Origin: Siphonodentalium dalli
Lineage: Eukaryota; Mollusca; Scaphopoda; Gadilida; Siphonodentaliidae
NCBI GenBank assembly: GCA_032622095.1
Contig: CP136068.1
Span: 123,695,989 to 123,759,988, forward strand
Length of the DNA stretch: 64,000 bases
Direction of reading: 5' to 3'
The notes below the pieces were generated by a model. The model worked only from the letters and a program-made list of their open reading frames with translations, was not told where the DNA came from and searched no databases. Shown here piece after piece: positions 36,434-64,000 of this stretch (positions are counted from its first letter, which is position 1; every line of letters starts with the position of its first letter). The translations under genes and the position numbers were made by a program.

Positions 36434-36523
36434 TCCTCATTCTCTTCGTTCATGACCGTTGTTACAACTGACAGCATGGTATTGTGTCTGAAAATATAAA
36501 TATTATATAACTTATATACCATA
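36434..36523. other. Upstream region of the GT31 gene, cut by the Helitron array
   Basis: Only 90 bp separate the gene's first Met from the outer end of the array. An AT-rich stretch (36497-36520) is present, but no promoter element can be assigned with confidence. Confidence 0.4.
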
Positions 36524-37259
36524 CTAGAAGGTGACCCGACTTCGTCCGGGCTTTGACCTTGAATTGTCCATTTTGAAGGTCAATGTCAAGTGGGGTAACG
36601 ATTTGACCAGTCCAAAACACTGCCCGGACAAAGGTACCCCGACAAACGTGCCCGTCGAATCCATCCGGTTTTACCCGATTTGACCTTGAATTGATAATTT
36701 GAAGGTCAAGGTCAGGTCGGGGTCACGACTCGACCCGTCCAAAACACTCAGTGGACAAAAGTAACCCACGTATCAAATTTCGTCGAAATCCCATCAAAAT
36801 TGGCGATATGACCTTGAATTGACCCGATTTCAAGGTCAATGTCACGTCGCACGGGCAAATGAATATGCTTATGAGACTCCCCCATACGAAAGTACCCCCC
36901 AAATACCAAGTTTCATCGAAATCCCGTAATATTCGGGCGTTTGACCTTGAAATGACCCGATTTCAAGGTCAAGGTCACGTCGCACGGACAAATTAATAGG
37001 TTTATGCCACTCCCCGGCCGAAGATACCCCCACATACCAAGTTTCATCGAAATCCCGTGATATTAGGGCATTTGACCTTGTAATTACCCGATTTCAAGGT
37101 CAAGGTCACGTCGCACGGGCAAATTAATAGGCCTATGCCCGTTCCCGGCAGAAAATACCCCCACATACAAAGTTTCATCGAAATCGGGTCGGCCGTTTTC
37201 GAGTTCATCGCGAACACACAGACACACAGACAGACAGATCTTCCAAAATATATAATAGA
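36524..37259 (-). mobile_element. Array unit 1 (GAAGGTGACCC type)
   Basis: The 3' end CTAG is at 36524-36527 and the 5' end (minus) TCTATTATATATTTTGGAAG is at the right edge. The body is six imperfect direct repeats of about 130 bp, each holding TGACCTTGAA and AAGGTCAAGGTCA-like strings. Confidence 0.7.
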
Positions 37260-37997
37260 ATAGAAGGTGACCCGACTTCGTCCGGCCGTTGACCTTGAAT
37301 TGACCATTTTGAAGGTCAAGGTCAGGTGGGGTCAAACACCAACACCCCAAAAATGGAAATCGGCCCAGCGGATACCGGGAAATCGGCCCAGCGGATACCG
37401 AGATACCCTATATGCATCAAATTTCGTCCGTAAAAATCCCCCAGTTTAACCCGATTTGATTTCCACTCAAGTATATAAACGCGCCTCATATACACACGCT
37501 CATTAATTATCAAGTTTCAACGTAAAGATAAATTACCATCGGTGCCCGAGATATCGCCAAGACGTCTGAAACAGTCAAATGCATCGGCCGGTTAAGCGTT
37601 AACGTGATCTAACGTTATGACCTCTAACGACGTCATAGAAGTTACGCATTGTTTTTATCCTGATGGAAGATAGTACCACTTCTTCTTGATAACTGAGGCA
37701 GATAACTAAAACGGATACGTACGCATTATATATCGTTGGAAAGAGGAAACACGAAAGATTCTCACAGTGTCATTATTATGACTGGCATTTTATTATTCGC
37801 GCTGTTTCGAATCGCTTTGTAAGCACCGAACTCAAATGAAAGTCCCGCAACACAGCGTAAAAACAGATTTGACCTCGGCACGTGAAAAGTTGACATCGGA
37901 TCTGAAAATTAATAAGCCTATGCCACTTCCCGACCGATAGTACCCTCACATACGAAGATTCATCGAAATCGGGTCGGCCGTTTTCGAGTGCATCGCG

Positions 37998-38081
<84 letters not shown>

Positions 38082-38132
38082 ACACCACACACACACACAC
38101 ACACAGACAGAACTTCCAAAATATATAATAGA
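37260..38132 (-). mobile_element. Array unit 2 (GAAGGTGACCC type)
   Basis: The 3' end reads CTAT rather than CTAG. The body from 37560 matches unit 16 ('acagtcaaatgcatcgg', 'tatgacctctaacgacgtca'). Ends in a long CA tract and TCTATTATATATTTTGGAAG. Confidence 0.65.
38000..38105. repeat. (CA)n microsatellite
   Basis: About 50 CA dinucleotides with two 'accac' interruptions near 38079-38090. Confidence 0.95.
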
Positions 38133-39322
38133 CTAGCAGGTTAGCCCGCCACTGGCGGCATTCGTCCCATGGCTTTGTTTCAGAAACATGACATTTTTGT
38201 AATTATTTTGTTTTTATTTATTTTGGTTTTTTATTTTTGAATATGAATTTAATGTTTTTTAAATTTAATATATTTTGTTTCTGAATTGTTTTTTTATTGT
38301 AAATTGTTTTAATTAATTTAAATGTTTCTGGCGGAAAAAATTACCCGTATAAATCCCCCCCCTTCCTAGGAACGACAGACAACGCATTCTTTGTTTCGTG
38401 AAATCTCTCTACGATAACATTGCATTGAATTTAAAACAAACGCTTCCCGTCGGGAAATCTGTCTGCATAATATTTTGAGTCTGCCGTACCCGTCGTAATG
38501 TTGTTGGCATCACGGCTCCCCGAAAACTCTCACATTGCCGAAAACGTGTATTTAGTAATATCGTTGTTGTTGATATTTACGGCTTGGGGCTATTTTCTTA
38601 TTTAGCAAGTTTGAGCTCAATCGGTTCGAGTCTATAAAGGACACACTCATATATATGACACTTCCCGTAGGTAGCAAGTTTGAGCTCAGTAGGCATTCCC
38701 TGGAATTTCCCGTAGATTGGCAGATTCCAGTAGCTTTATAACGGTATATCTGGGGAGAAATCTGATGCTATATTCGTGATTATCTGGGATGATTTCGGTA
38801 TATACCGAAGGTATATACTGTAAAAACAAAGCGCGCCATCCGTGCTCGCAGGGAATAAATTTCGAGCGATAACGTTTGCGTAAATACGAAATTGTGAGTG
38901 TTGGTTTGTAACCGGGATTTCTGAGAAGCATTATGCCTATAACTACCCCCCCTAAGCCCTGACCTAAGTGTCATACATACTATAACAATGATGTTGTAAG
39001 AGCTCCAATAAATCTCCCCGCATAGGCAAGCACTCAATGTTCCCGTATAACTCTGCAGATGCCAATAACGTTGAATGGTAAACAGACGCTCTTTATAGAG
39101 ATGCGTCAAAAACAAACGCTCATTAAATAATCACTTGATTAACCCACGCCGTGCATTTGCGGTGATTTAAGATTGGAGAACGGGTGCTCTGAGCTTTTCT
39201 AAACCGCGACCACGGTCGTGTCGGTGTGATTTGACACTTACATAGGAAGTTTGAGCTCAATCTGTACACGCGTTTTGGATTCTATGAAGTACACACACAC
39301 GGAAGTCTCAAAATATATAGTA
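38133..39322 (-). mobile_element. Array unit 3 (GCAGGTTAGCCC type)
   Basis: CTAG plus hairpin at the left. The T-rich block at 38190-38340 and 'agcaagtttgagctcaatcg' copies are shared with units 5-10 and 13. The right junction is CTAG|TACTATATATTTTGAGA. Confidence 0.7.
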
Positions 39323-40136
39323 CTAGCAGGTTAGCCCGCCACTGGCGGCATTCGTCTCATGGCTTTGTTTCAGAAACATGACATTTTTTTAATTTAACCA
39401 AATTTCAAGTCGATAGCTCCACCCGTTTCCGAGATCTGGTCTGCGCATGCGCGAAGCTGGCGTCGCACGGGCTCGGCGACCCGATAAAATTCGTACCCGG
39501 GGCAAGATACATTCACATACCAAATTTCAAGTCGATAGCTCCACCGGTTTCCAAGATCTCGTCTGCGCATGCGCGAAGCTGGCGTCGCACGGACTCGACG
39601 ACCCGATAAAATTTGTATCCGGGGCAAGATACATTCACATAGCAAATTTCAAGTCGATAGCTCCACCCGTTTGCGAGATAACGCATTCTTTGTTTTTCAA
39701 TGAGTTAATTCATGGTACCCGTCCTCCCCGTCCTAAACTTCAGAGCGGACAGTCAATTAATCCCGTCGTGAAATCCCTCTGCATAATATTTCGAGCTCTT
39801 AGATCAATTTTGCCTTTTTAGTTGCATTTCGTCCGCATCCGTATTTCGGACGCATGGGGTCAGTCGTTTAGCCACGTCCATTGGAATCCGCATCGGGCGC
39901 ATGGGGTATCGTTTAGCCACGTCCATTGCAATAAAGAGCGTTAATTGTTAAAACATCCGTATAAGGTATAGATAAAGAGCGTTATTGCCTTAACCCCCGT
40001 AGTGCCTTTGCTGTGATTTGGGAGTGGATAAAGGGTGCTCAGAGCTTCTCGAAAACACGACTACGGCGGTGTCGGTGTTATTTTACACTTACATACGAAA
40101 TTTGATCTCAATCTGTACACGCGTTTTGGATTCTAT

Positions 40137-40204
<68 letters not shown>

Positions 40205-40230
40205 CGAAGTCTCAAAATATATAGTATAGA
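39323..40230 (-). mobile_element. Array unit 4 (GCAGG type)
   Basis: Carries two and a half copies of the 125-bp sub-repeat ('gtctgcgcatgcgcgaagct', 'ggcgtcgcacgg') at 39405-39675 and a CA tract near its 5' end. Confidence 0.7.
40139..40196. repeat. (CA)n microsatellite
   Basis: About 29 CA dinucleotides. Confidence 0.95.
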
Positions 40231-41247
40231 CTAGCAGGTTAGCCCGCCACTGGCGGCATTCGTCCCATGGCTTTGTTCGAAAAAGCAATTGCAACAGGTT
40301 CCTAGACACTTGTGCTGCATTTGCACCAAATTTCGGCAATAGTCAGAAACATGACAATTTTAATTTAATTTTTTGTTTTTCAATGAGTTAATTATTTTGT
40401 TTTTCAATGAGTTAATTGTGCTTTTTTAATTTTTTAATTGAATTTTTTGTTTTTAAATTTTACCCGATTTTTTTGGTTTTTCAAGGAGTTAATTGTGCCT
40501 TTTTAATTTTGTTTTTCAATTTTACCCGATTTTTTTTGGTTTTTCAATGAACCCGTCCATGACACTTCCCGTATTTAGCAAGTTTGAGCTCAATCGGTTC
40601 GAGTCTATAAAGGACACACACATATATATGACACTTCCCGTAGGTAGCAAGTTTGAGCTCAATCGGCATTCCCTGGAATTTCCCAGTAAATATTTAGCAA
40701 GTTTGAGCTCAATCGGTTCGAGTCTATAAAGGACACACTCATATATATTTGCCGACATTGCCGTGGGGATGCCCGTTCCTACACGCGTTTTCGATTCTAT
40801 GAAGTACCCACATATATACACACATATTAATAGTAGATTGGCAGATTCCAGTAGCTTTATAACGGTATATCTGGGGAGAAATCTGATGCTATATTCGTGA
40901 TTATCTGGGATGATTTCGGTATATACCAAAGGTATATACTGTAAAAACAAAGCGCGCCATCCGTGCTCGCAGGGAATAAATTTCGAGCGATAACGTTTGC
41001 GTTCCCGCATAACTATGCAGATGCTAATAACGTTGAATGTGAAACAGACGCTCTTTATAGAGATGCGTCAAAAACAAACGCTCATTAAATAATCACTCGA
41101 TTAACCCACGCCGTGCCTTTGCGGTGATTTGAGATTGGAGAACGGGTGCTCTGAGCTTCTCTAAACCACGACCACGGTCGTGTCGGTGTGATTTGACACT
41201 TACATAGGAAGCTTGAGCTCAATATGTACACGCGTTTTGGATTCTAT

Positions 41248-41303
<56 letters not shown>

Positions 41304-41333
41304 CGAAGTCTCAAAATATATAGTATAGATAGA
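40231..41333 (-). mobile_element. Array unit 5 (GCAGG type)
   Basis: Full 3' end with hairpin at 40244-40256. From 40518 onward it is the first copy of the 3.06-kb duplication. Contains a CA tract at about 41251-41297. Confidence 0.7.
41251..41297. repeat. (CA)n microsatellite
   Basis: About 23 CA dinucleotides. The duplicate at 44328-44354 is 18 bases shorter. Confidence 0.95.
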
Positions 41334-42399
41334 CTAGCAGGTTAGCCCGCCACTGGCGGCATTCGTCCCATGGCTTTGTTTCAGAAACATGACATTTTTG
41401 TAATTATTTTGTTTTTATTTATTTTTGTTTTTTATTTTTGAATATGAATTTAATGTTTTTTAAATTTAATATATTTTGTTTCTGAATTGTTTTTTTATTG
41501 TTAATTTTTTTTAATTTTAAATTGTTTTAATTAAATTGTAAATTGTTTTAATTAATTTTTTTGTTTCTGGCGGAAAAATTTACCCGTATAAATCCCCCCC
41601 CCCCCCTTCCTAGGAACGACAGACAACGCATTCTTTGTTTCGTGAAATCTCTCTACGATAACATTGCATTGAATTTAAAACAAACGCTTCCCGTCGGGAA
41701 ATCTGTCTTCGGTCGTTGTTGTTGGCATCACGGCTCCCCGAAAACTCTCACATTGCCGAAAACGTGTATTTAGTAATATCGTTGTTGTTGATATTTACGG
41801 CTTGGGGGCTATTTTCTTATTTAGCAAGTTTGAGCTCAATCGGTTAGAGTCTATAAAGGACACACTCATATATATGACACTTCCCGTGGGTAGCAAGTTT
41901 GAGCTCAATCGGCATTCCCTGGAATTTCCCGTAGATTGGCAGATTCCAGTAGCTTTATAACGGTATATCTGGGGAGAAATCTGATGCTATATTCGTGATT
42001 ATCTGGGATGATTTCGGTATATGACTATATACTGTAAAAACAAAGCGCGCCATCCGTGCTCGCAGGGTTGGTCAGAAACAAATGTTTTTTAAATGTAATG
42101 TATGTTCCGTATATCTCTCTGCAGATGCAAATAACGTTGAATGGCAAACAGACGCTCTTTATAGAGATGCGTCAAAAACAAACGCTCATTAAATAATCAC
42201 TTGATTAACCCACGCCGTGCCTTTGCGGTGATTTGAGATTGGAGAACGGGTGCTCTGAGCTTTTCTAAACTGCGACCACGGTCGTGTCGGTGGGATTTGA
42301 CACTTACATAGGAAGTTTGAGCTCAATCTGTACACGCGTTTTGGATTCTATGAAGTACATACATACATATATACGAAGTCTCAAAATATATAGTATAGA
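41334..42399 (-). mobile_element. Array unit 6 (GCAGG type)
   Basis: T-rich block at 41390-41570 followed by an 11-base C run. Identical in length (1066 bp) to unit 9. Confidence 0.7.
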
Positions 42400-43592
42400 C
42401 TAGCAGGTTAGCGCGCCACCGGCGGCTTGTCCGAAACATGACATTGTTTTATAAATATTTTTTTAATTTTTAGCTCCACGCGTTTCAATAAGAAAAATTT
42501 GTACCCGGTAGCTCCACCCGTTTCCGAGATCTGGTCTGCGCATGCGCGAAGCTGGCGTCGCACGGGCTCGGCGACCCGATAAAATTTGTACCCGGCGCAA
42601 GATACATTCACATACCAAATTTCAAGTCGATAGCTCCACCCGTTTCCGATATCTCGTCTGCGCATGCGCTGCACGGGCGTCGCATGGGCTCGCCAATACG
42701 ACAGCGACGACCACCTGGTCAAACTACACTCACGTACCAAGTTTCGTCCCGATCGGTCGAGGTGTTGGTATCTGATGCAAAAGACGAAATTGTGAGTGTT
42801 GGTCAATAGTCCCCGCCGTGAACCGCATCGTCGCAAAGAGCGGACAGTCAATTAACCCCGTTGTGAACCTCAATCACCAACGCGACGTAAACATGTGTTG
42901 CGTTCTAAAAATAGGAAACCACTTTCTCTCTGCATAATTCTGCAGATCCTAATAACGTTGCTCCCCGTAGGTAGCATTATCGTTGTTGTTGATATTTACG
43001 GCTTGGGGGCTATTTTCTTATTTAGCAAGTTTGAGCTCAATCGGTTCGAGTCTATAAAGGACACACTCATATATATGACACTTCCCGTGGATAGCAAGTT
43101 TGAGCTCAATCGGCATTCCCTGGAATTTCCCGTAGATTGGCAGATTCCAGTAGCTTTATAACGGTATATCTGGGGAGAAATCTGATGCTATATTCGTGAT
43201 TATCTGGGATGATTTCGGTATATGACTATATACTGTAAAAACAAAACGCGCCATCCGTGCTCGCAGGGTTGGTCAGAAACAAATGTTTTTTAAATTTAAT
43301 GTATGTTCCGTATATCTCTCTGCAGATGCAAATAACGTTGAATGGCAAACAGACGCTCTTTATAGAGATGCGTCAAAAACAAACGCTCATTAAATAATCA
43401 CTTGATTAACCCACGCCGTGCCTTTGCGGTGATTTGAGATTGGAGAACGGGTGCTCTGAGCTTTTCTAAACTGCGACCACGGTCGTGTCGGTGGGATTTG
43501 ACACTTACATAGGAAGTTTGAGCTCAATCTGTACACGCGTTTTGGATTCTATGAAGTACATATATACGAAGTCTCAAAATATATATATATAT
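42400..43592 (-). mobile_element. Array unit 7 (GCAGG type)
   Basis: Includes the 125-bp sub-repeat at 42500-42690 and a block 'gatcggtcgaggtgttggta' shared with units 10 and 17. Its right boundary is not a CTAG junction but the duplication breakpoint in an AT tract. Confidence 0.65.
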
Positions 43593-44322
43593 AATTTTAC
43601 CCGATTTTTTTTGGTTTTTCAATGAACCCGTCCATGACACTTCCCGTATTTAGCAAGTTTGAGCTCAATCGGTTCGAGTCTATAAAGGACACACACATAT
43701 ATATGACACTTCCCGTAGGTAGCAAGTTTGAGCTCAATCGGCATTCCCTGGAATTTCCCAGTAAATATTTAGCAAGTTTGAGCTCAATCGGTTCGAGTCT
43801 ATAAAGGACACACTCATATATATTTGCCGACATTGCCGTGGGGATGCCCGTTCCTACACGCGTTTTCGATTCTATGAAGTACCCACATATATACACACAT
43901 ATTAATAGTAGATTGGCAGATTCCAGTAGCTTTATAACGGTATATCTGGGGAGAAATCTGATGCTATATTCGTGATTATCTGGGATGATTTCGGTATATA
44001 CCAAAGGTATATACTGTAAAAACAAAGCGCGCCATCCGTGCTCGCAGGGAATAAATTTCGAGCGATAACGTTTGCGTTCCCGCATAACTATGCAGATGCT
44101 AATAACGTTGAATGTGAAACAGACGCTCTTTATAGAGATGCGTCAAAAACAAACGCTCATTAAATAATCACTCGATTAACCCACGCCGTGCCTTTGCGGT
44201 GATTTGAGATTGGAGAACGGGTGCTCTGAGCTTCTCTAAACCACGACCACGGTCGTGTCGGTGTGATTTGACACTTACATAGGAAGCTTGAGCTCAATAT
44301 GTACACGCGTTTTGGATTCTAT

Positions 44323-44360
<38 letters not shown>

Positions 44361-44390
44361 CGAAGTCTCAAAATATATAGTATAGATAGA
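43593..44390 (-). mobile_element. Array unit 8, 3'-truncated copy of unit 5
   Basis: Starts inside unit 5 sequence and therefore lacks the hairpin and CTAG. A truncation made by the duplication, not by transposition. Confidence 0.7.
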
Positions 44391-45456
44391 CTAGCAGGTT
44401 AGCCCGCCACTGGCGGCATTCGTCCCATGGCTTTGTTTCAGAAACATGACATTTTTGTAATTATTTTGTTTTTATTTATTTTTGTTTTTTATTTTTGAAT
44501 ATGAATTTAATGTTTTTTAAATTTAATATATTTTGTTTCTGAATTGTTTTTTTATTGTTAATTTTTTTTAATTTTAAATTGTTTTAATTAAATTGTAAAT
44601 TGTTTTAATTAATTTTTTTGTTTCTGGCGGAAAAATTTACCCGTATAAATCCCCCCCCCCCCCTTCCTAGGAACGACAGACAACGCATTCTTTGTTTCGT
44701 GAAATCTCTCTACGATAACATTGCATTGAATTTAAAACAAACGCTTCCCGTCGGGAAATCTGTCTTCGGTCGTTGTTGTTGGCATCACGGCTCCCCGAAA
44801 ACTCTCACATTGCCGAAAACGTGTATTTAGTAATATCGTTGTTGTTGATATTTACGGCTTGGGGGCTATTTTCTTATTTAGCAAGTTTGAGCTCAATCGG
44901 TTAGAGTCTATAAAGGACACACTCATATATATGACACTTCCCGTGGGTAGCAAGTTTGAGCTCAATCGGCATTCCCTGGAATTTCCCGTAGATTGGCAGA
45001 TTCCAGTAGCTTTATAACGGTATATCTGGGGAGAAATCTGATGCTATATTCGTGATTATCTGGGATGATTTCGGTATATGACTATATACTGTAAAAACAA
45101 AGCGCGCCATCCGTGCTCGCAGGGTTGGTCAGAAACAAATGTTTTTTAAATGTAATGTATGTTCCGTATATCTCTCTGCAGATGCAAATAACGTTGAATG
45201 GCAAACAGACGCTCTTTATAGAGATGCGTCAAAAACAAACGCTCATTAAATAATCACTTGATTAACCCACGCCGTGCCTTTGCGGTGATTTGAGATTGGA
45301 GAACGGGTGCTCTGAGCTTTTCTAAACTGCGACCACGGTCGTGTCGGTGGGATTTGACACTTACATAGGAAGTTTGAGCTCAATCTGTACACGCGTTTTG
45401 GATTCTATGAAGTACATACATACATATATACGAAGTCTCAAAATATATAGTATAGA
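44391..45456 (-). mobile_element. Array unit 9 (copy of unit 6)
   Basis: Same length as unit 6 and apparently identical, with intact CTAG and TC junctions. Confidence 0.7.
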
Positions 45457-46660
45457 CTAGCAGGTTAGCGCGCCACCGGCGGCTTGTCCGAAACATGACA
45501 TTGTTTTATAAATATTTTTTTAATTTTTAGCTCCACGCGTTTCAATAAGAAAAATTTGTACCCGGTAGCTCCACCCGTTTCCGAGATCTGGTCTGCGCAT
45601 GCGCGAAGCTGGCGTCGCACGGGCTCGGCGACCCGATAAAATTTGTACCCGGCGCAAGATATATTCACATACCAAATTTCAAGTCGATAGCTCCACCCGT
45701 TTCCGATATCTCGTCTGCGCATGCGCTGCACGGGCGTCGCATGGGCTCGCCAATACGACAGCGACGACCACCTGGTCAAACTACACTCACGTACCAAGTT
45801 TCGTCCCGATCGGTCGAGGTGTTGGTATCTGATGCAAAAGACGAAATTGTGAGTGTTGGTCAATAGTCCCCGCCGTGAACCGCATCGTCGCAAAGAGCGG
45901 ACAGTCAATTAACCCCGTTGTGAACCTCAATCACCAACGCGACGTAAACATGTGTTGCGTTCTAAAAATAGGAAACCACTTTCTCTCTGCATAATTCTGC
46001 AGATCCTAATAACGTTGCTCCCCGTAGGTAGCATTATCGTTGTTGTTGATATTTACGGCTTGGGGGCTATTTTCTTATTTAGCAAGTTTGAGCTCAATCG
46101 GTTCGAGTCTATAAAGGACACACTCATATATATGACACTTCCCGTGGATAGCAAGTTTGAGCTCAATCGGCATTCCCTGGAATTTCCCGTAGATTGGCAG
46201 ATTCCAGTAGCTTTATAACGGTATATCTGGGGAGAAATCTGATGCTATATTCGTGATTATCTGGGATGATTTCGGTATATGACTATATACTGTAAAAACA
46301 AAACGCGCCATCCGTGCTCGCAGGGTTGGTCAGAAACAAATGTTTTTTAAATTTAATGTATGTTCCGTATATCTCTCTGCAGATGCAAATAACGTTGAAT
46401 GGCAAACAGACGCTCTTTATAGAGATGCGTCAAAAACAAACGCTCATTAAATAATCACTTGATTAACCCACGCCGTGCCTTTGCGGTGATTTGAGATTGG
46501 AGAACGGGTGCTCTGAGCTTTTCTAAACTGCGACCACGGTCGTGTCGGTGGGATTTGACACTTACATAGGAAGTTTGAGCTCAATCTGTACACGCGTTTT
46601 GGATTCTATGAAGTACATATATACGAAGTCTCAAAATATATAGTATAGATAGATAGAAGA
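45457..46660 (-). mobile_element. Array unit 10 (copy of unit 7)
   Basis: Copy of unit 7 but with a true 5' end followed by GATAGATAGAAGA and the CTAG of unit 11, showing what unit 7 looked like before the duplication. Confidence 0.7.
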
Positions 46661-47362
46661 CTAGCAGGTTAGCCCGCCACCGGCGGCTTGTCCGAAACAT
46701 GACATTTTTTTTAGCTCCACGCGTTTCAATAAGAAAAATTTGTACCCGGTAGCTCCACCCGTTTCCGAGATCTGGTCTGCGCATGCGCGAAGCTGGCGTC
46801 GCACGGACTCGGCGACCCGATAAAATTTGTACCCGGCGCAAGATACATTCACATAACAAATTTCAAGTCGATAGCTCCACCCGTTTCCGAGATCTCGTCT
46901 GCGCATGCGCTGCACGGGCGTCGCACGGGCTCGGCGACCCGATAAAATTTGTACCCGGCGCAAGATACATTCACATAGCAAATTTCAAGTCGATAGCTCC
47001 ACCCTTTTCCGAGATCTCGTCTGCGCATGCGCTGCACGGGCGTCGCACGGGCTCGCCAATACGACAACGACCACCGCCTGGTCAAACTACACACACGTAC
47101 CAAGTTTCGTCCCGATCGGTCGAGAATCGTAGATTTGTATGAAGTACAACACACACACAAACATAAATATATAAGAGAGATATGTAAATTAGATAGATTG
47201 TATCAAAATATATAGGAGATATATGTAAATTATCTACACACCATTACTGGTGTTTGTCAAAGTTTAGTGGGGTATATCAATACTCATTCACGATCATATC
47301 ATTGAGGTCCGGAGGGTGTGCGCTATCTCTCGAATACACGGAGTTCTCAAAATATATAGTAC
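46661..47362 (-). mobile_element. Array unit 11 (GCAGG type, atypical 5' part)
   Basis: Three consecutive 125-bp sub-repeats (46745-47060), then 47160-47340, which matches no other unit. The right junction is CTAG|TACTATATATTTTGAGA. Confidence 0.65.
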
Positions 47363-48415
47363 TAGCAGGGTAGCCCGCCACCGGCGGCTTGTCCGAAACA
47401 TGACATTTTTTGTTTTTCAATGAGTTAATTGTGACATTTGTTTATATTTTTTTTTAATTTTTAGCTCCACGCGTTTCAATAAGAAATTTTTTTACCCGGT
47501 AGCTCCACCCGTTTCCGAGATCTGGTCTGCGCATGCGCGAAGCTGGCGTCGCACGGGCTCGACGACCCGATAAAATTTGTACCCGGTGCAAGATACATTC
47601 ACATAGCAAATTTCAGGTCGATAGCTCCACCCGTTTCCGAGATCTGCCTTTCTGCATAATATTTCGAGCGATAACATTGCATTGAAATGTCAGACTCCCA
47701 TCGTGAACCTCAACACGAAGTAAACACGTGTTTCGAGCGATAACATTGCATTGAAATGACTCCCATCGTGAACCTCAAGACGACGTAAAACACGTGTTGC
47801 GTTCTAGGAAATGCACTCAATGCAGATGCTAATAACGTTGACTTCGTATATATATATATAATGACGTTATTAACCCCGGCCGTGCCGTTTGAGCTGATTT
47901 TTATGACTGGGAGTGGAGTACGGGTGCTCGGAGCTTCTGGAAAACGCGTGGACGACATCGTACGTGTTATTTTACCTTTAGATAGGAAGTTTGAGCTCAA
48001 TCTGTCCAGCCGTTCCCGTCCTAATGTACTATTTCGAGCGATAACAATTGTCAGACTCCCATCGTGAACCTCAACACGAAGTAAACACGTGTTTCGAGCG
48101 ATAACATTGCATTGAAGTCAGACTCCCATCGTGGACCCCCAAGACGACGTAAACACGTGTTTGTTCCGGTATAACTTTGGAGACTCTGACTTCATATATA
48201 TATATAATGACGTTATTAACCCCGGCCGTACCGTTTGAGCTGATTTCGATGACTGGGAGTGGATAAAGGGTGCTCAGAGCTTCTCGAAAACACGATTACG
48301 GCGGTGTCGGTGGGATTTTACACTTACATACGAAATTTGATCTCAATCTGTACACGCGTTTTGGATTCTATGAAGTACACACATATATACGAAGTCTCAA
48401 AATATATAGTATAGA
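47363..48415 (-). mobile_element. Array unit 12 (GCAGGGTAGCC type)
   Basis: Nearly identical to unit 14. Offset 2166 bp. Contains repeated 'tttcgagcgataacattgca' and 'gactcccatcgtgaacctca' blocks. Confidence 0.7.
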
Positions 48416-49527
48416 CTAGCAGGTTAGCCCGCCACTGGCGGCATTCGTCCTATGGCTTTGTCAGAAACATGACTTTTTGTTTTTCAATGAGTTAATTCTG
48501 CCCTTTTAATCAAGAAAAATAATGGTCTCACCATGGACCAATAACAATTCAAGTACAACATTTGGGAATTTTTCCCCACACCATTTCAATTTCCTAATTT
48601 AATGTTTTTTAAATTTAATATATTTTGTTTCTGAATTGTTTTTTTATTGTTAATTTTTTTTAATTTTAAATTGTTTTAATTAAATCGTAAATTGTTTTAA
48701 TTAATTTTTTTGTTTCTGGCGGAAAAATTTACCCGTAGAAATCCCCCCTTCCTAGGAACGACAGACAACGCATTCTTTGTTTCGTGAAATCTCTCTACGA
48801 TAACATTGCATTGAATTTAAAACAAACGCTTCCCGTCGGGAAATCTGTCTTCGGGTCGTTGTTGTTGGCATCACGGCTCCCCGAAAACTCTCACATTGCC
48901 GAAAACGTGTATTTAGTAATATCGTTGTTGTTGATATTTACGGCTTGGTGGCTATTTTCTTATTTAGCAAGTTTGAGCTCAATCGGTTAGAGTCTATAAA
49001 GGACACACTCATATATATGACACTTCCCGTAGGTAGCAAGTTTGAGCTCAATCGGCATTCCCTGGAATTTCCCGTAGATTGGCAGATTCCAGTAGCTTTA
49101 TAACGGTATATCTGGGGAGAAATCTGATGCTATATTCGTGATTATCTGGGATGATTTCGGTATATACCGAAGGTAAAAACAGAGCGCGCCATCCGTGCTC
49201 GCAGGGAATAAATTTCGAGCGATAACGTTTGCGTTCCCGTATAACTCTGCAGATGCGAATAACGTTGAATGGGAAACAGACGCTCTTTATAGAGATGCGT
49301 CAAAAACAAACGCTCATTAAATAATCACTTGATTAACCCCCGCCGTGCCTTTGCGCTGATTTGAGATTGGAGAACGGGTGCTCTGAGCTTTTCTAAACCG
49401 CGACCACGGTCGTGTCGGTGGGATTTGACACTTACATAGGAAGTTTGAGCTCAATCTTTACACGCGTTTTGGATTCTATGAAGTACACACACACACATAT
49501 ACGAAGTCTCAAAATATATAGTATAGA
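48416..49527 (-). mobile_element. Array unit 13, carrying a satellite monomer
   Basis: Positions 48479-48600 match half of the 243-bp satellite found beside the Rep/helicase gene ('atggtctcaccatggaccaa', 'tcaagtacaacatttgggaa'). The remainder matches unit 6. Confidence 0.75.
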
Positions 49528-50581
49528 CTAGCAGGGTAGCCCGCCACCGGCGGCTTGTCCGAAACATGACATTTTTTGTTTTTCAATGAGTTAATTGTGA
49601 CATTTGTTTATATTTTTTTTTAATTTTTAGCTCCACGCGTTTCAATAAGAAAATTTTTTACCCGGTAGCTCCACCCGTTTCCGAGATCTGGTCTGCGCAT
49701 GCGCGAAGCTGGCGTCGCACGGGCTCGACGACCCGATAAAATTTGTACCCGGTGCAAGATACATTCACATAGCAAATTTCAGGTCGATAGCTCCACCCGT
49801 TTCCGAGATCTGCCTTTCTGCATAATATTTCGAGCGATAACATTGCATTGAAATGTCAGACTCCCATCGTGAACCTCAACACGAAGTAAACACGTGTTTC
49901 GAGCGATAACATTGCATTGAAATGACTCCCATCGTGAACCTCAAGACGACGTAAAACACGTGTTGCGTTCTAGGAAATGCACTCAATGCAGATGCTAATA
50001 ACGTTGACTTCGTATATATATATATAATGACGTTATTAACCCCGGCCGTGCCGTTTGAGCTGATTTTTATGACTGGGAGTGGAGTACGGGTGCTCGGAGC
50101 TTCTGGAAAACGCGTGGACGACATCGTACGTGTTATTTTACCTTTAGATAGGAAGTTTGAGCTCAATCTGTCCAGCCGTTCCCGTCCTAATGTACTATTT
50201 CGAGCGATAACAATTGTCAGACTCCCATCGTGAACCTCAACACGAAGTAAACACGTGTTTCGAGCGATAACATTGCATTGAAGTCAGACTCCCATCGTGG
50301 ACCCCCAAGACGACGTAAACACGTGTTTGTTCCGGTATAACTTTGGAGACTCTGACTTCATATATATATATAATGACGTTATTAACCCCGGCCGTACCGT
50401 TTGAGCTGATTTCGATGACTGGGAGTGGATAAAGGGTGCTCAGAGCTTCTCGAAAACACGATTACGGCGGTGTCGGTGGGATTTTACACTTACATACGAA
50501 ATTTGATCTCAATCTGTACACGCGTTTTGGATTCTATGAAGTACACACATATATACGAAGTCTCAAAATATATAGTATAGA
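49528..50581 (-). mobile_element. Array unit 14 (copy of unit 12)
   Basis: 1054 bp against 1053 bp in unit 12. Open frames across it are repeated exactly. Confidence 0.7.
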
Positions 50582-51767
50582 CTAGCAGGGTAGCCCGCCA
50601 CCGGCGGCTTGTCCGAAACATGACATTTTTTGTTTTTCAATGAGTTAATTGTGACATTTGTTTATATTTTTTTTTAATTTTTAGCTCCACGCGTTTCAAT
50701 AAGAAAAAATTGTACCCGGTAGCTCCACCCGTTTCCGAGATCTGGTCTGCGCATGCGCGAAGCTGGCGTCGCACGGGCTCGGCGACCCGCTCAAATTTGT
50801 ACCCGGCCCAAGATACATTCACATAGCAAATTTCAAGTCGATAGCTCCACCCGTTTCCGAGATCTCGTCTGCGCATGCGCTGCACGGGCGTCGCATGGGC
50901 TCGGCGACCCGATAAAATTTGTACCCGGTGCAAGGTACATTCACATAGCAAATTTCAGGTCGATAGCTCCACCCGTTTCCGAGATCTGCCTTTCTGCATA
51001 ATATTTCGAGCGATAACATTGCATTGAAATGTCAGACTCCCATCGTGAACCTCAACACGAAGTAAACACGTGTTTCGAGCGATAACATTGCATTGAAATG
51101 ACTCCCATCGTGAACCTCAAGACGACGTAAAACACGTGTTGCGTTCTAGGAAATGCACTCAATGCAGATGCTAATAACGTTGACTTCGTATATATATATA
51201 ATGACGTTATTAACCCCGGCCGTGCCGTTTGAGCTGATTTTTATGACTGGGAGTGGAGTACGGGTGCTCGGAGCTTCTGGAAAACGCGTGGACGACATCG
51301 TACGTGATATTTTACCTTCAGATAGGAAGTTTGAGCTCAATCTGTCCAGCCGTTCCCGTCCTAATGTACTATTTCGAGCGATAACAATTGTCAGACTCCC
51401 ATCGTGAACCTCAACACGAAGTAAACACGTGTTTCGAGCGATAACATTGCATTGAAGTCAGACTCCCATCGTGGAACCCCAAGACGACGTAAACACGTGT
51501 TTGTTCCGGTATAACTTTGGAGACTCTGACTTCATATATATATATAATGACGTTATTAACCCCGGCCGTGCCGTTTGAGCTGATTTCGATGACTGGGAGT
51601 GGATAAAGGGTGCTCAGGGCTTCTCGAAAACACATCTACGGCGGTGTCGGTGGAATTTTACACTTACATACAAAATTTGATCTCAATCTGTACACGCGTT
51701 TTGGATTCTATGAAGTACACACATATATACACACACATATATATACGAAGTCTCAAAATATATAGTA
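50582..51767 (-). mobile_element. Array unit 15 (relative of units 12 and 14)
   Basis: As unit 14 but with one extra 125-bp sub-repeat (50840-50970). The 5' end abuts the other 3'-end type: CTTCTAG|TACTATATATTTTG. Confidence 0.7.
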
Positions 51768-52570
51768 CTAGAAGGTGACCCGACTTCGTCCGGGCTATTC
51801 AAAAACCAAATTTCAAGTCGATTGCTCCACCCGTTTCCTAGATCTGGTCTGCGCATGCGCGAAGCTGGTGTCGCACGTGCTCGGCGACCCGATAAAATTC
51901 GTATCCGGGGCAAGATACATTCACATACCAAATTTAAAGTCAATATCTCAACCCGTTTTCGAGATCTCGTCTGAGCATGCGCGAAGCTGGCGTCGCACGT
52001 GCTCGGCGACCCGATAAAATTCGTATCCGGGGCAAGATACATTCACATACCAAATTTCAAGTCGATAGCTACACCCGTTTCCGAGATATATAGCCCAATG
52101 TCATTTGCGGATACCTCGGCCGGTGATGAGTTAACGCGACACAGTCAAATGCATCGGCAGGGTGAGAGTTAACGTAATCTAACTTTATGACCTCTGACGA
52201 CGTCATAGAAATTACGCATTGATTTTATCCCGATAAAAGCATCGCACCACTTGTACCTAATAATTGAGGCAGATAACTAAAACGGATACATACATATTAT
52301 ATATCGTTGGAAAGATGAAGCCACACAGATTCTAACCGTGCAAATTATATGACTGGCAATTTATTATTCGCGCTATATCGAATCGATTTGTGAGCACCGA
52401 ACTGAAATATATTAGCGCAAAAACGGCGTAAAAATAGATTTGACCTCCGCACGTGAAAAGTTGACCTCGCACGGACAAATAAATATGCCTATGTTCGTCT
52501 CCGGCCGAAAATACCCTAAAATACCAAATTTCATCGAAATTGGCTTAGTCGTTTTCGAGTCCATCGATTT

Positions 52571-52614
<44 letters not shown>

Positions 52615-52657
52615 AACACATACATACACACACAGATCTTTCAAAATATATAATAGA
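51768..52657 (-). mobile_element. Array unit 16 (GAAGGTGACCC type)
   Basis: Relative of unit 2 inserted among GCAGG-type units. 3' hairpin CCCGGACGAAGTCGGG, CA tract near the 5' end, then TCTATTATATATTTTGAAAG. Confidence 0.7.
52573..52611. repeat. (CA)n microsatellite
   Basis: About 19 CA dinucleotides. Confidence 0.95.
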
Positions 52658-53745
52658 CTAGCAGGTTAGCCCGCCACCGGCGGCTTGTCCGAAACATGAC
52701 ATTTTTTTAATATTTTTTTTTAATTTTTAGCTCCACGCGTTTCAATAAGAAAAATTTGTACCCGGTAGCTCCACCCGTTTCCGAGATCTGGTCTGCGCAT
52801 GCACGAAGCTGGCGTCGCACGGACTCGGCGACCCGATAAAATGTGTACCCGGCGCAAGATACATTCACATAGCAAATTTCAAGTCGATAGCTCCACCCGT
52901 TTCCGAGATCTCGTCTGCGCATGCGCTGCACGGGCGTCGCACGGGCTCGGCGACCCGATAAAATTTGTACCCGGCGCAAGATACATTCACATACCAAATT
53001 TCAAGTCGATAGCTCTACCCGTTTCCGATATCTCGTCTGCGCATGCGCTGCACGGGCGTCGCATGGGCTCGCCAATACGACAGCGACGACCACCTGGTCA
53101 AACTACACTCACGTACCAAGTTTCGTCCCGATCGGTCGAGGTGTTGGTATCTGATGCAAAAGACGAAATTGTGAGTGTTGGTCAATAGTCCCCGCCGTGA
53201 ACCTCATCGTCGCAAAGAGCGGACAGTCAATTAACCCCGTTGTGAACCTCAATCACCAACGCGACGTAAACATGTGTTGCGTTCTAAAAATAGGAAAGCA
53301 TTTTCTCTCTGCATAATTCTGCAGATGCTAATAACGTTGCTCCCCGTAGGTAGCAATATCGTTGTTGTTGATATTTACGGCTTGGGGGCTATTTTCTTAT
53401 TTAGCAAGTTTGAGCTCAATCGGTTCGAGTCTAAATTTAATGTATGTTCCGTATATCTCTCTGCAGATGCAAATAGCGTTGAATGGCAAACAGACGATCT
53501 TTATAGAGATGCGTCAAAAACAAACGCTCATTAAATAATCACTTGATTAACCCACGCCGTGCCTTTGCGGTGATTTGAGATTGGAGAACGGGTGCTCTGA
53601 GCTTTTCTAAACTGCGACCACGGTCGTGTCGGTGGGATTTGACACTTACATAGGAAGTTTGAGCTCAATCTGTACACGCGTTTTGGATTCTATGAAGTAC
53701 ACACATACACACATATATACGAAGTCTCAAAATATATAGTATAGA
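52658..53745 (-). mobile_element. Array unit 17 (GCAGG type)
   Basis: Three 125-bp sub-repeats followed by the unit 7/10 block, with an internal deletion near 53433 relative to unit 7. Ends with TCTATACTATATATTTTGAG. Confidence 0.7.
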
Positions 53746-54130
53746 CTAGCAGGTTAGCCCGCCACTGGCGGGATTGGTCCCATGGCTTTGGTCGATCCAT
53801 TAAGCTTTGGTCGATCTATTTATTTGTGTTTTTCAGGGTAACCCCGTACAGGCATGACAAAATAACATTTGGTTTTTCAACGAGTTAATTATGGTACCCG
53901 TCCCTAAAAGATTTAAGGTACATCGGGCGGAAAGAACTGACCCGATGAAAAAAATTTGAGCCCGACGTTGTCCGGGCTATTCAAAAACCAAATTTCAAGT
54001 CGATAGCTCCACCCGTTTCCGAGATCTGGTCTGCGCATGCGCGAATCTGGCGTCGCACGGGCTCGGCGACCCGATAAAATTGGCGTGGTTCGTCTCATGG
54101 CTGTGTCAGAAACATGACTTTTTGTCTTTC
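53746..54130 (-). mobile_element. Array unit 18: 3' terminus joined to the satellite
   Basis: CTAG and the hairpin are present, followed by one 125-bp sub-repeat. From 54115 the sequence becomes the 243-bp satellite instead of ending. I take this as the probable 3' end of the large coding Helitron to the right. Confidence 0.6.
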
Positions 54131-56256
54131 AATGAGTTAATTCTGCCCTTTTAATCAAGAGAAATAATGGTCTCACCATGGACCAACAACAATTCAAGTA
54201 CAACATTTGGGAATTTTTCCCCACACCATTTCAATTTCCTGAGTAACTGGATTTGCATTTTTCTGTCTATACATTCACTCATCTAAGAGTTTCTTAAAAC
54301 ATTAATTATAGTTGTTGATTGATTCGTTAATTGAACTGAATGGTCAGAATACAGAACTGAAAACGTGAGGAGACACATGAGATTATCAATGAGTTAATTC
54401 TGCCTTTTTATCAAGAGAAACGATAGTCTCATCATGGACCAATAACAATTCAAGTACAACATTTGGGGATTTTTCCCCACACCAATTAAATTTCCTGTGT
54501 AACTGGATTTGCATTTTCTGTCTATACATTCACTCATCTAAGAGTTTCTTAATACATTAATTATCGTTGTTCATTGATTCGTTAATTAAACTGAGTGGTC
54601 AGAATACAGAAGTGAAAAAGTGAGGAGATAATGAGTTAATTCTGCCTATTTAATCAAGAGAAACGATAGTCTCATCATGGACCAATAACAATTCAAGTAC
54701 AACATTTGGGGATTTTCCCCCACACCAATTCAATTTCCTGTGTAACTGGATTTGCATTTTTCTGTCTATACATTCACTCATCTAAGAGTTTCTTAATACA
54801 TTAATTATCGTTGTTCATTGATTCGTTAATTAAACTGAGTGTTCAGAATACAGAACTGAAAAAGTGAGGAGATAATGAGTTAATTCTGCCTATTTAATCA
54901 AGAGAAACGATAGTCTCATCATGGACCAATAACAATTCAAGTACAACATTTGGGAATTTTTCCCCACATCAATTCAATTTCCTGTGTAACTGGATTTGCA
55001 TTTTTCTGTCTATACATTCACTCATCTAAGAGTTTCTTAATACATTAATTATAGTTGTTGATTGATTCGTTAATTGAACTGAATGGTCAGAATACAGAAC
55101 TGAAAACGTGAGGAGACACATGAGATAATCAATGAGTTAATTCTGCATTTTTAATCAAGAGAAATGATAGTCTCACCACGGACCAATAATAATTCAAGTA
55201 CAACATTTGGAAAATTTTCCCCACACCAATTCAATTTCCTGTGTAACTGGATTTGCATTTTCCTGTCTATACATTCACTCATCTAAGAGTTTCTTAATAC
55301 ATTAATTATCGTTGTTCATTGATTCGTTAATTAAACGGAGTGGTCAGAATACAGAACTGAAAAAAGTGAGGAGATAATGAGTTAATTCTGCCTATTTAAT
55401 CAAGAGACGATAGTCTCATCATGGACAAATAACAATTCAAGTACAACATTTGGGAATTTTTCCCCACACCAATTCAATTTTCTGTGTAACTGGATTTGCA
55501 TTTTTCTGTCTATACATTCACTCATCTAAGAGTTTCTTAATACATTAATTATCGTTGTTCATTGATTCGTTAAATAAACTGAGTGGTCAGAATACAGAAC
55601 TGAAAAAGTGAGGAGATAATGAGTTAATTCTGCCTATTTAATCAAGAGAAACGATAGTCTCACCATGGACCAATAACAATTCAAGTACAACATTTGGGAA
55701 TTTTTCACAAACCAATTCAATTTCCTGTGCCGCTGGATTTGCATTTTTCTGTCTATACATTCACTCATCTAAGAGTTTCTTAATACATTAATTATCGTTG
55801 TTCATTGATTCGTTAAATAAACTGAGTGGTCAGAATACAGAACTGAAACAGTGAGGAGTTAATGAGTTAATTCTGCCTATTTAATCAAGAGAAACGATAG
55901 TCTCACCATGGACCAATAACAATTCAAGTACAACATTTGGGAATTTTTCACAAACCAATTCAATTTCCTGTGCCGCTGGATTTGCATTTTTCTGTCTATA
56001 CATTCACTCATCTAAGAGTTTCTTAATACATTAATTATCATTGTTCATTGATTCGTTAATTAAACTGAGTGGTCAGAATACAGAACTGAAAACGTGAGGA
56101 GATAATGAGTTAATTCTGCCTATTTAATCTAAGAGTTTCTTAATACATTAATTATAGTTGTTCATTGATTCGTTAATTGAACTGAGTGGACAGAATACAG
56201 AACTGAAAACGTGAGGAGATAATTCTGCCTCTTTAAGCAAGAGAGATGTTCTCACC
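54131..56256. repeat. 243-bp satellite array, first block
   Basis: Units beginning TGAGTTAATTCTGCC start at 54133, 54390, 54632, 54876, 55133, 55379, 55620, 55863 and 56106 (spacing 241-257). The last is truncated. Length variants arise from an optional 'cacatgagataatcaa'. No coding frame. Confidence 0.92.
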
Positions 56257-56556
56257 ATGGACCAACAACAATTAAGACGGAACACTCTAACTTTCAAATC
56301 ATGCCTGTCTTTAGAAACCTGGCCCTCGAACAATTCAACTGTCAACTCCTGCCATGCAGGGCTGCACGTGAAATGTGATGAAAAGGTCCGGACGACCGAA
56401 GTGCCTGACAAATGTCACAGCATCCTGCGTCTTTTCCTGCATATATCGCGGGCTACCTGTGGATGTCGACGGGGGAATTACCAGTTGGCCGACTCCGGCT
56501 CTTTCCTGATCATTAGTTATCCTATCACAGAAGTGTATATATGAATCGGCACGGAG
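56257..56556 (-). pseudogene. Fragment of Helitron Rep N-terminal region
   Basis: On the minus strand, 56500-56375 reads GQLVIPPSTSTGSPRYM then QDAVTFVRHFGRPDLFITF. After one inserted C it continues in another frame with FTCSPAWQELTVELFEGQ and RHDLKVRVFRLN. This is the Helitron-like N-terminal domain that precedes the HUH nickase motif. Its end corresponds to just before the first residue visible at 63997, so it complements the truncated ORFs. It is embedded in the satellite and is dead. Confidence 0.8.
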
Positions 56557-57454
56557 TTTATGTACAACAATTGGGAATTTTTCCCCACACCAATTCTATT
56601 TCCTAAGTAACTGGGTTTGTATTTTTCTGTCTATACATTCACTCATCTAAGAGTTTCTTAATACATTAATTATCGTTGTTGATTAATTCGTTAATTGAAC
56701 TGAGTGGTCAGAATACAGAACTCAAAACGTGAGGAGACACATGAGATAATCAATGAGTTAATTCTGCCTTTTTAATCAAGAGAAATGATGGTCTCACCAT
56801 GGACCAATAACAATACAAGTACAACATTTGGGAATTTTTCCCCACACCAATTCAATTTCCTGAGTAACTGGATTTGTTTTTTTCTGTTTATACATTAATT
56901 CATCTAAGAGTTTCTTAATTCATTAATTCATTAATTATCGTTGTTCAGTGATTCGTTAATTAAACTGAGTTGTCAGAATACAGAAGTGAAAACGTGAGGA
57001 GACACATGAGATAATCAATAAGTTAATTCTGCCTTTTAAATCAAGAGAAATAATGGTCTCACCATGGACCTATAACAATTCAAGTACAACATTTGGGAAT
57101 TTTTCCCCACACCAATTCAATTTCCTGAGTAACTGGGTTTGTAATTTTCTGTCTATACATTCATCTAATAGTTTCTTAATCCATTAATTATCGTTGTTGA
57201 TTAATTCGTTAATTGAACTGAGTGGTCAGAATACAGAACTGAAAACGTGAGGCGACACATGAGATAAATAATCAAGTGAATGAACCAGATTGTGTGCAGA
57301 GCGATAATGTGGAATGTACAACGAATGAAAATGTTGGAAGAGATATCAATATAACCACTAAGCGCACCCACATCGAATGAAAGGGGAGGTCTCAAAAATC
57401 GAAGACAATGTTTTGGTTTTTCAATGAGTTAATTCTGCCGTTTTAATCAAGAGA
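56557..57454. repeat. 243-bp satellite, second block
   Basis: Partial and complete units (starts 56754, 57017 and 57426) with slightly different consensus from the first block, ending at the helicase fragment. Confidence 0.88.
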
Positions 57455-57630
57455 AATTGGCCGTCGACAGTTTGTAAGGAGTTAAACGATGTTGGATCTT
57501 CCACTTCATGCAGCAGCATTCTCAAGAAAAACAAACATTGCTGTTGTGTAGGATGAACAGTGTAGACCCTACCGAGAGCACAGTCTTTGAACACGCCCAT
57601 TACTCATTCGACGGGTTCACCATTTCGCTT
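57455..57630 (-). pseudogene. Second, diverged Helitron helicase fragment
   Basis: Minus strand reads VMGVFKDCALGRVYTVHPTQ and LHEVEDPTSFNSLQTVDGQF. This is homologous to the internal part of the adjacent ORF near 59440-59615 but about 10-15% different, with a TGA just upstream. It abuts the satellite, so an older Helitron copy was truncated here. Confidence 0.85.
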
Positions 57631-57643
57631 TTGAAAATTTACC

Positions 57644-60046: not shown

Positions 60047-60069
60047 GGGACAATATGGAACAACCCACC

Positions 60070-60967
60070 TTTATGTACAACAATTGGGAATTTTTCCCCA
60101 CACCAATTCTATTTCCTAAGTAACTGGGTTTGTATTTTTCTGTCTATACATTCACTCATCTAAGAGTTTCTTAATACATTAATTATCGTTGTTGATTAAT
60201 TCGTTAATTGAACTGAGTGGTCAGAATACAGAACTCAAAACGTGAGGAGACACATGAGATAATCAATGAGTTAATTCTGCCTTTTTAATCAAGAGAAATG
60301 ATGGTCTCACCATGGACCAATAACAATACAAGTACAACATTTGGGAATTTTTCCCCACACCAATTCAATTTCCTGAGTAACTGGATTTGTTTTTTTCTGT
60401 TTATACATTAATTCATCTAAGAGTTTCTTAATTCAATAATTCATTAATTATCGTTGTTCAGTGATTCGTTAATTAAACTGAGTTGTCAGAATACAGAAGT
60501 GAAAACGTGAGGAGACACATGAGATAATCAATAAGTTAATTCTGCCTTTTAAATCAAGAGAAATAATGGTCTCACCATGGACCTATAACAATTCAAGTAC
60601 AACATTTGGGAATTTTTCCCCACACCAATTCAATTTCCTGAGTAACTGGGTTTGTAATTTTCTGTCTATACATTCATCTAATAGTTTCTTAATCCATTAA
60701 TTATCGTTGTTGATTAATTCGTTAATTGAACTGAGTGGTCAGAATACAGAACTGAAAACGTGAGGCGACACATGAGATAAATAATCAAGTGAATGAACCA
60801 GATTGTGTGCAGAGCGATAATGTGGAATGTACAACGAATGAAAATGTTGGAAGAGATATCAATATAACCACTAAGCGCACCCACATCGAATGAAAGGGGA
60901 GGTCTCAAAAATCGAAGACAATGTTTTGGTTTTTCAATGAGTTAATTCTGCCGTTTTAATCAAGAGA
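60070..60967. repeat. 243-bp satellite, third block (duplicate of the second)
   Basis: Same unit order as 56557-57454. Confidence 0.9.
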
Positions 60968-61143
60968 AATTGGCCGTCGACAGTTTGTAAGGAGTTAAAC
61001 GATGTTGGATCTTCCACTTCATGCAGCAGCATTCTCAAGAAAAACAAACATTGCTGTTGTGTAGGATGAACAGTGTAGACCCTACCGAGAGCACAGTCTT
61101 TGAACACGCCCATTACTCATTCGACGGGTTCACCATTTCGCTT
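60968..61143 (-). pseudogene. Duplicate of the diverged helicase fragment
   Basis: Copy of 57455-57630 with the same TGA, produced by the 3513-bp duplication. Confidence 0.85.
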
Positions 61144-61156
61144 TTGAAAATTTACC

Positions 61157-63997: not shown

Positions 63998-64000
63998 GAG

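Follow-up and report, generated by a model that had tools for sequence, protein, structure and literature searches.

We analyzed a window of 64,000 bp from the genome of the scaphopod Siphonodentalium dalli (C8:123,695,989-123,759,988; 2.23 Gb in nine contigs), which contains part of a head-to-tail array of Helitrons. Coordinates without a contig name are those of the window. With a probability of roughly 0.6, the array is a composite stack that arose by serial insertion of Helitrons at or within the 5' termini of resident elements, together with segmental duplication. It lies on the minus strand and extends over 49 kb from position 36524 to about 85568, the flanks beyond the window having been fetched. 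Read on this strand, the units begin with TC, end with CTAG and abut without spacer. The array contains 28 3' ends of the family, all in one orientation; one belongs to type C and the remaining 27 to types A and B. It is bordered by a host T at 36523 (3' side) and a host A at about 85569 (5' side).

Composition of the array

For the region 36524-54130 the initial annotation had proposed about 18 units in one orientation. In agreement with this count, we found 16 units that possess a 3' end, one that lacks it (43591-44390) and the 3' terminus of a unit encoding a RepHel protein, all on the minus strand. Among the 17 family 3' ends in this region, the one at 36524 faces the host T and the other 16 form spacer-free joints. 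The next unit starts with TC at 13 of these joints and with TA at three (39323, 47362 and 51768), as had been noted before (TC in most, TA in a few); the 3' end reads CTAG at 15 joints and CTAT at one (37260). A hairpin 7-9 nucleotides before CTAG was likewise recovered. In types A, B and C, stems of 4-5 bp are predicted at this spacing, whose stability compared with shuffled sequences is weak (z -0.5 to -1.8). The ordered array of 17 kb described initially is real, but it does not end there: it includes the RepHel unit and reaches about 85568. Similarly, the RepHel gene is on the same strand as stated, but it is not a neighbour of the array, since its unit (53746-67836) is a member of it.

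Three types of 3' ends were distinguished: A (ending in GGCGGGCTAACCTGCTAG), B (ending in GTCGGGTCACCTTCTAG) and C (ending in GTCGGGCTCATCGGCTAG). The 5' end of family A is TCTATACTATATATTTTGAG, while family C starts with TCTCAT. A units fall into several subfamilies, which have modules in common, including a 122-bp repeat and an (AC)n tract. The C unit is the 5'-most of the array, and B units occupy the two 3'-most positions and one position in mid-array. The features within the window are as follows.

36524..64000, minus strand: Helitron array, part within the window; the whole array runs to about 85568
36524..37259, minus strand: family B unit, 3'-most; CTAG followed by host T
37260..38132, minus strand: family B unit; 3' end CTAT, 5' start TCTATTATATATTTTGG
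38133..39322, minus strand: family A unit, 5' start of TA type (TACTATATAT); interpreted as a resident from which TCTA has been split
39323..40230, minus strand: family A unit, matching the RepHel unit over about 42% of its length
40231..41333, minus strand: family A unit of subfamily A1b; its TCTA leader is doubled, interpreted as including the TCTA displaced from 38133-39322
40518..46651, no strand: 3.06-kb tandem segmental duplication, copies 40518-43593 and 43593-46651, 99.3% identical
41334..50581, minus strand: eight units with 3' ends and one truncated unit, belonging to at least four subfamilies, with a TA joint at 47362
50582..51767, minus strand: family A unit with TA-type 5' start
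51768..52657, minus strand: family B unit between family A units; both joints heterotypic
52658..53745, minus strand: family A unit, 5' end adjoining the 3' end of the RepHel unit
53746..64000, minus strand: autonomous Helitron unit, 3' part; whole unit 53746-67836, 14,091 bp
57644..60046, minus strand: second, partial RepHel open reading frame (ORF; helicase part), from a 3.5-kb internal duplication
61157..64000, minus strand: RepHel ORF, complete at 61157-65983, 1608 aa; Helitron_like_N/Rep and PIF1 helicase

The seam of the tandem duplication at 43593 accounts for the 3'-truncated unit 43591-44390, and the unit 42400-43590, which has an altered 5' end, also lies at this seam. Units 47362-48415 and 49528-50581 are 99.9% identical and are separated by an unlike unit. 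Two units of a D type, 46661-47361 and 67837-70550 (L009), have an additional 5' core some 143 bases inward, as composite elements would. Beyond the window, a unit of 9.5 kb (74460-83935, L010) is bounded by A-type ends; some 8 kb of its content is unexplained, none of its ORFs exceeds 164 codons, and 0.9 kb is duplicated internally. Just past the 3' end of the array, two overlapping minus-strand ORFs (35430-36433) were judged by eye to be of galactosyltransferase type.

The elements are canonical Helitrons, as confirmed by a 5' TC and a 3' CTRR terminus (here CTAG), the 3' hairpin, insertion between A and T, apparently without target duplication, and a protein with Rep and PIF1-like helicase domains. 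Helentrons are defined by an insertion site between T and T, by inverted repeats close to their ends and by an endonuclease domain. Assignment to this class was rejected, as the flanks are A and T and Pfam scans of the RepHel ORF, carried out in two pieces, disclosed no endonuclease family. The flanks were also inspected. The base before the outermost TC was A at all 16 outer 5' edges read by eye, a set from which three edges at CTGCCAA (also with A before TC), internal cores of D units and chance core matches without a TC start had been excluded. In 25 sampled sequences, this array included, each of the 12 free 3' ends was followed by T, three or four of them facing worn Helitron 5' ends and not plain host DNA. 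The two bases behind the free 3' ends were TA in ten of the 12 cases, as at the sequence TCTA^TACT inside the 5' end of family A.

As the 1608-aa RepHel ORF lies inside the 14,091-bp unit, the array includes an autonomous element. Within this ORF, LPHAH is presumably the HUH-like motif and YVCKYINKG the two-tyrosine stretch. Its best relative of solved structure is Helraiser (PDB 7lcc, E 1.6e-187 for the 946-aa part within the window). At least eight places in the genome encode a protein of 98-100% identity over nearly the whole query without internal stop, namely this copy and at least seven others of 98-99% identity whose frame is open across the match; these counts are lower bounds, as 48 of 946 candidates were scored. 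The unit had been regarded as the probable autonomous source beside the array. It is contained in the array and has at least seven near-identical open copies elsewhere, so that it does not stand out as the source. A further RepHel family of about 63-69% identity occurs in tandem in several places. The 3' half of the unit (54131-60780) contains 243/265-bp repeat arrays and part of the 3.5-kb duplication (99.8%). Furthermore, at 53746-54140 on the minus strand a C-type 3' hairpin without CTAG is situated about 210 bp before the A-type 3' end of the unit, as though the element had come to use a new end after bypassing an old one.

Mixed joints and putatively split 5' termini

A concatemer derived from one template is expected to give like neighbours and nearly no heterotypic joints. 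In the 29 segments of the array, the mean similarity of adjacent segments was 0.283, compared to 0.228 after shuffling of their order (p 0.09). Two segments had their nearest relative as a neighbour, with 1.93 expected. The outcome was unchanged after removal of one copy of the duplicated block (26 segments; two with such a neighbour, p 0.13) and after additional removal of the two long units (24 segments; one, p 0.10). In the 25 sampled sequences, 25 of 116 joints were heterotypic when D-type starts were scored as family A, while random pairing of ends would give 33. From the unlike neighbours and the heterotypic joints we concluded that this array is not a concatemer of one template. Rolling-circle replication failing to stop at the 3' end, to which the initial annotation had attributed the array, was thus not corroborated: neighbours belong to different subfamilies and families, and TA joints between C and A elements bear the signature of insertion into a resident 5' end.

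This signature follows from the way in which such a stack would grow. Newcomers of several families, autonomous and non-autonomous, would land at A^T, either exactly at the 5' terminus of a resident or slightly inside it. With A^TC as target, composed of a host or leader A and the first T of the resident, the outcome would be a joint of CTAG followed by TC. A target four bases further inside, TCTA^TACT, would yield CTAG followed by TA, and the resident's TCTA would be moved to the far side of the newcomer. In family A, insertion at this internal A^T would leave TACTATAT behind the CTAG of the newcomer and TCTA in front of it. All units would point in one direction without spacers, each stack would retain one host A and one host T, and segmental duplications would add further length. 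The 116 sampled joints started with TC (91), TA (22, read as split termini) or CT (3), and the TA joints look like insertions inside the resident 5' end at TCTA^TACT. The joints of CTAG and TC probably arose by insertion as well, rather than by recombination of circles.

Family C was suitable for examining displaced leaders, because its start, TCTCAT, makes TCTA in front of a C element difficult to attribute to simple slippage. Genome-wide, TCTA immediately precedes 676 of 16,978 C-starts (4.0%). C elements are joined to A elements at 327 exact matches of a C end followed by TCTATACT and at 246 of a C end followed by TACT. The paired tests were performed on contig C1 alone (34, 37 and 96 places). 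A C-start led by TCTA was present anywhere within 1.1 kb upstream on the same strand at 20 of 34 C ends followed by TACT, at 12 of 37 C ends followed by TCTATACT and, among the matches listed, at none of 100 C ends followed by a C-start. Within 1.1 kb downstream it was found at three of 34 and none of 37 places, respectively. TCTA on one side of C elements together with TACT on the other thus occurs far above the base rate. The contrast between TA and TC joints had a p value of 0.033 at 1.1 kb, or 0.0025 without a repeat at 190.2 Mb (19/29 versus 9/34), and 0.008 at 2 kb (25/34 versus 15/37). The 12 cases at TC joints may reflect newcomers that landed between two copies of TCTA where the leader was longer, or else a signal that is less specific than thought.

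Some individual arrays fit this picture. At C7_63, TCTA precedes a D-type start and TACT follows, and at C3_204 TCTA lies before a C element, which is followed by a B element and then TACT; neither start is a TCTA repeat. Within the window, TCTA is absent from the start of the resident 38133-39322; two places upstream of it, the unit 40231-41333 exceeds L034, L035 and the solitary copy L041 by one TCTA. For the other three TA joints of the array, the sole available donor leader is the (TCTA)6 of the unit at 83936.

Arrays of this kind had been thought uncommon, which the genome does not bear out. An exact 20-mer of the A-type 3' end occurs 10,588 times and its reversed control not once, which excludes chance. 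In 6,672 pattern matches (63%) a Helitron 5' core lies no more than 25 bases behind the 20-mer. These whole-genome counts are free of the bias of a joint-spanning query and comprise exact matches only. Uniqueness of the locus was therefore rejected, as many similar arrays exist. Of the first 100 A-type places on C1, 30 were single and 70 lay in 18 clusters, none of which was of mixed strand. Exact A-type 5' cores (n = 7,660) stand behind TCTA in 4,087 and behind CTAG in 1,766 cases, leaving 1,807 others; TACT starts may therefore also occur elsewhere than at joints. Copies of subfamily A1b were read with both flanks at 15 places, selected, like the comparison arrays, by one joint-spanning query, which over-represents arrays. 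The search for single units flanked by A and T, suggested at the outset, yielded one solitary copy (L041, A...T) among these 15. A Helitron joint was found on the 5' side of 11 and on the 3' side of 12 A1b copies, and the residents on the 3' side in 12 of the 15 places were A, B, C and other elements.

Several other loci were recorded in the course of this survey. A second large stack at C1:13.7157-13.7577 Mb has 19 A-type 3' ends on one strand in 42 kb and also includes a RepHel gene on the same strand (68% protein identity). Higher-order tandem repeats of stacks were seen at C1:190.187-190.235 Mb and C1:31.739-31.757 Mb, the periods being about 11.4-12.5 kb and 13.31 kb. In the three arrays C3_89, C8_70 and C6_55 (L003/L024/L025, L050 and L029, respectively), a sequence ending in GGAATCTGCCAA directly abuts another Helitron 5' end, and A1b units contain a worn stretch resembling a 5' end where the sequences ending in GGAATCTGCCAA have their joint.

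Weighing of the explanations

A number of results weigh against stacking by serial insertion. Simple accretion at the 5' side is expected to place the youngest units towards the 5' end. In the array of the window, no age gradient was detected by best identity elsewhere (rho 0.23, p 0.25), and comparison arrays gave opposite signs, -0.86 for C3_210, as predicted, and +0.93 for C8_70, contrary to the prediction; these arrays were picked by one query, and the first unit of the window was misbounded by a chance core match, which left the conclusion unchanged. The contrast between TA and TC joints depends on distance and at 700 bp amounts to 16/34 versus 12/37 (p 0.23). Moreover, the base rate of 4.0% refers to immediate neighbours and the 20 of 34 to any TCTA-led start within 1.1 kb, and the control without any case in 100 stems from C1 below 53.2 Mb, most of the TA and TC places being located above 57 Mb. 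For TA joints in C1_58, C8_70 and C5_108 and for one of two in C1_97, no clear upstream TCTA was found; conversely, some units carry surplus TCTA leaders without a TA joint (e.g., 45457-46660 and C4_129). In a bracket test with 100 listed A joints, nine of 21 deficits were matched, 6.3 being expected (p 0.11). Finally, homotypic joints dominate family C, with 6,358 exact joints between C elements compared to the 327 and 246 from C to A. As same-family joints of C far outnumber the counted joints to A, random mixing fails genome-wide. Concatemers, block duplication or a separate period of activity may each have contributed to the homotypic C joints, and concatemers may also contribute in view of the inconsistent age gradient and of the TA joints without TCTA. 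As proof of simple nested insertion, we looked behind CTAG for the right half of the target CTGCCAA^TCTACGGG; it was present in none of the 25 sequences, and the respective joints may thus be 3'-truncated units.

Overrun of rolling-circle replication, or a Helitron circle copied several times, could produce a concatemer that integrates once between A and T. Spacer-free joints of CTAG and TC with A and T at the outer ends only would then be explained, and Helraiser is reported to make circles with exactly this joint (PMC4778049). The abundant C joints and the nearly identical units at 47362 and 49528 fit as well. This origin nevertheless appears unlikely, given the unlike neighbours, the heterotypic joints among the 116 sampled, the C elements with TCTA before and TACT behind them and the single occurrence of the 14-kb RepHel unit; for this array alone it is already hard to hold. 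Block duplications, on the other hand, are certain: 3.06 kb within the array (99.3%), 3.5 kb in the RepHel unit and 0.9 kb in the 9.5-kb unit, besides the higher-order periods at C1:190.2 Mb and C1:31.74 Mb. That unequal exchange or segmental duplication of a short array, or recombination of circles into residents, made most of the length is quite improbable, however. Duplication multiplies units and does not account for the first exact end-to-end adjacency of different families. Moreover, few of the 29 segments have a partner of at least 99% identity over the whole length in the array, and the order of units is mostly not reducible to blocks.

The TA joints and extra leaders might also reflect slippage of short repeats or inexact 5' cutting, without any history of insertion. 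TCTA and TCT leaders do vary in number, the unit at 83936 starts with (TCTA)6, and the outcome of the bracket test and the TA joints without upstream TCTA are in line with this idea. Yet the 5' ends of C elements are not TCTA repeats, and TCTA-led C-starts are nonetheless enriched near C ends followed by TACT relative to all C-starts and to the listed joints between C elements. Slippage of TCTA was therefore rejected as a full account, and we regard an origin of these marks without insertion as rather improbable. An artefact of assembly can practically be dismissed, because the units differ, so that a repeated or collapsed read would not yield such an order, because comparable joints number in the thousands, and because none of the 18 clusters among the first 100 places is of mixed strand.

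Known tandem Helitrons and the proposed landing site

A pair of unlike maize Helitrons with a joint of CTAG and TC and a G/T junction was described by Du et al. (2008, PMC2267711), who named both models, insertion at the AT formed by a host A and a resident T, and rolling-circle tandem formation. Joint and unlike elements are shared with the array studied here, but the maize case is one pair as against stacks of up to 28, and the accessible portions of that paper describe neither internal TCTA^TACT sites nor a RepHel gene inside. Tandem Helitrons are furthermore cited for the bat Myotis, Drosophila, rice, maize and plant centromeres (PMC2267711, PMC5876387, PMC5148889). In the passages concerned they are likewise head-to-tail arrays, explained by rolling-circle or circle multimers, whereas families are mixed in our arrays. 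Among fungi, self-insertion of a Fusarium Helitron and a tandem triple in Metarhizium are mentioned (PMC5148889). The composites with several 5' termini described there resemble our D units; its cases are few and of a non-canonical family, while here thousands of joints belong to a canonical family with TC and CTAG ends. An attraction to resident Helitrons has been reported before, according to a citing sentence, near and not at or inside the 5' terminus. Our literature search found no account of mixed-family stacks of this size or of a displaced leader, which is weak evidence of absence, as most subscription papers lay outside the search. Tandem Helitrons and self-insertion are known, and the scale and the split termini seem to be new.

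Helraiser and Helibat1 resemble the elements studied here in the RepHel protein, the TC/CTAG termini, the A^T target and the preference for AT-rich sequence on the 3' side; stacking on resident ends is not among the properties described in the available parts of these sources (PMC4778049, PMC5876387). Helraiser inserts at A^T and favours AT-rich sequence, mostly 3' of the insertion; in vitro, cleavage of its left end takes place before TC and, on the other strand, at an internal AT (PMC4778049). These cuts, together with TA behind ten of the 12 free 3' ends, led us to propose that the left end serves both as cut site of the donor and as target. A resident left end offers A^TC and TCTA^TACT, followed by TATATATTTT. 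Being AT-rich and also recognised by the enzyme, it would be an attractive target; both this preference and the enzymatic step are inferred.

The joint of CTAG and TC alone cannot separate a rolling-circle concatemer from neighbouring insertion. Mixed-family stacks and split 5' termini are marks in the sequence that separate both models, and the genome of S. dalli provides thousands of joints for such a test. We tentatively suggest, though with some doubt, that the left ends of other Helitrons are the main landing site, that most jumps extend stacks and that the sequence in which units arrived is recorded by the remnants TCTA and TACT. With the left end as a preferred target, the Helitron load could grow without hitting genes, and composite elements with multiple ends would emerge as a by-product.

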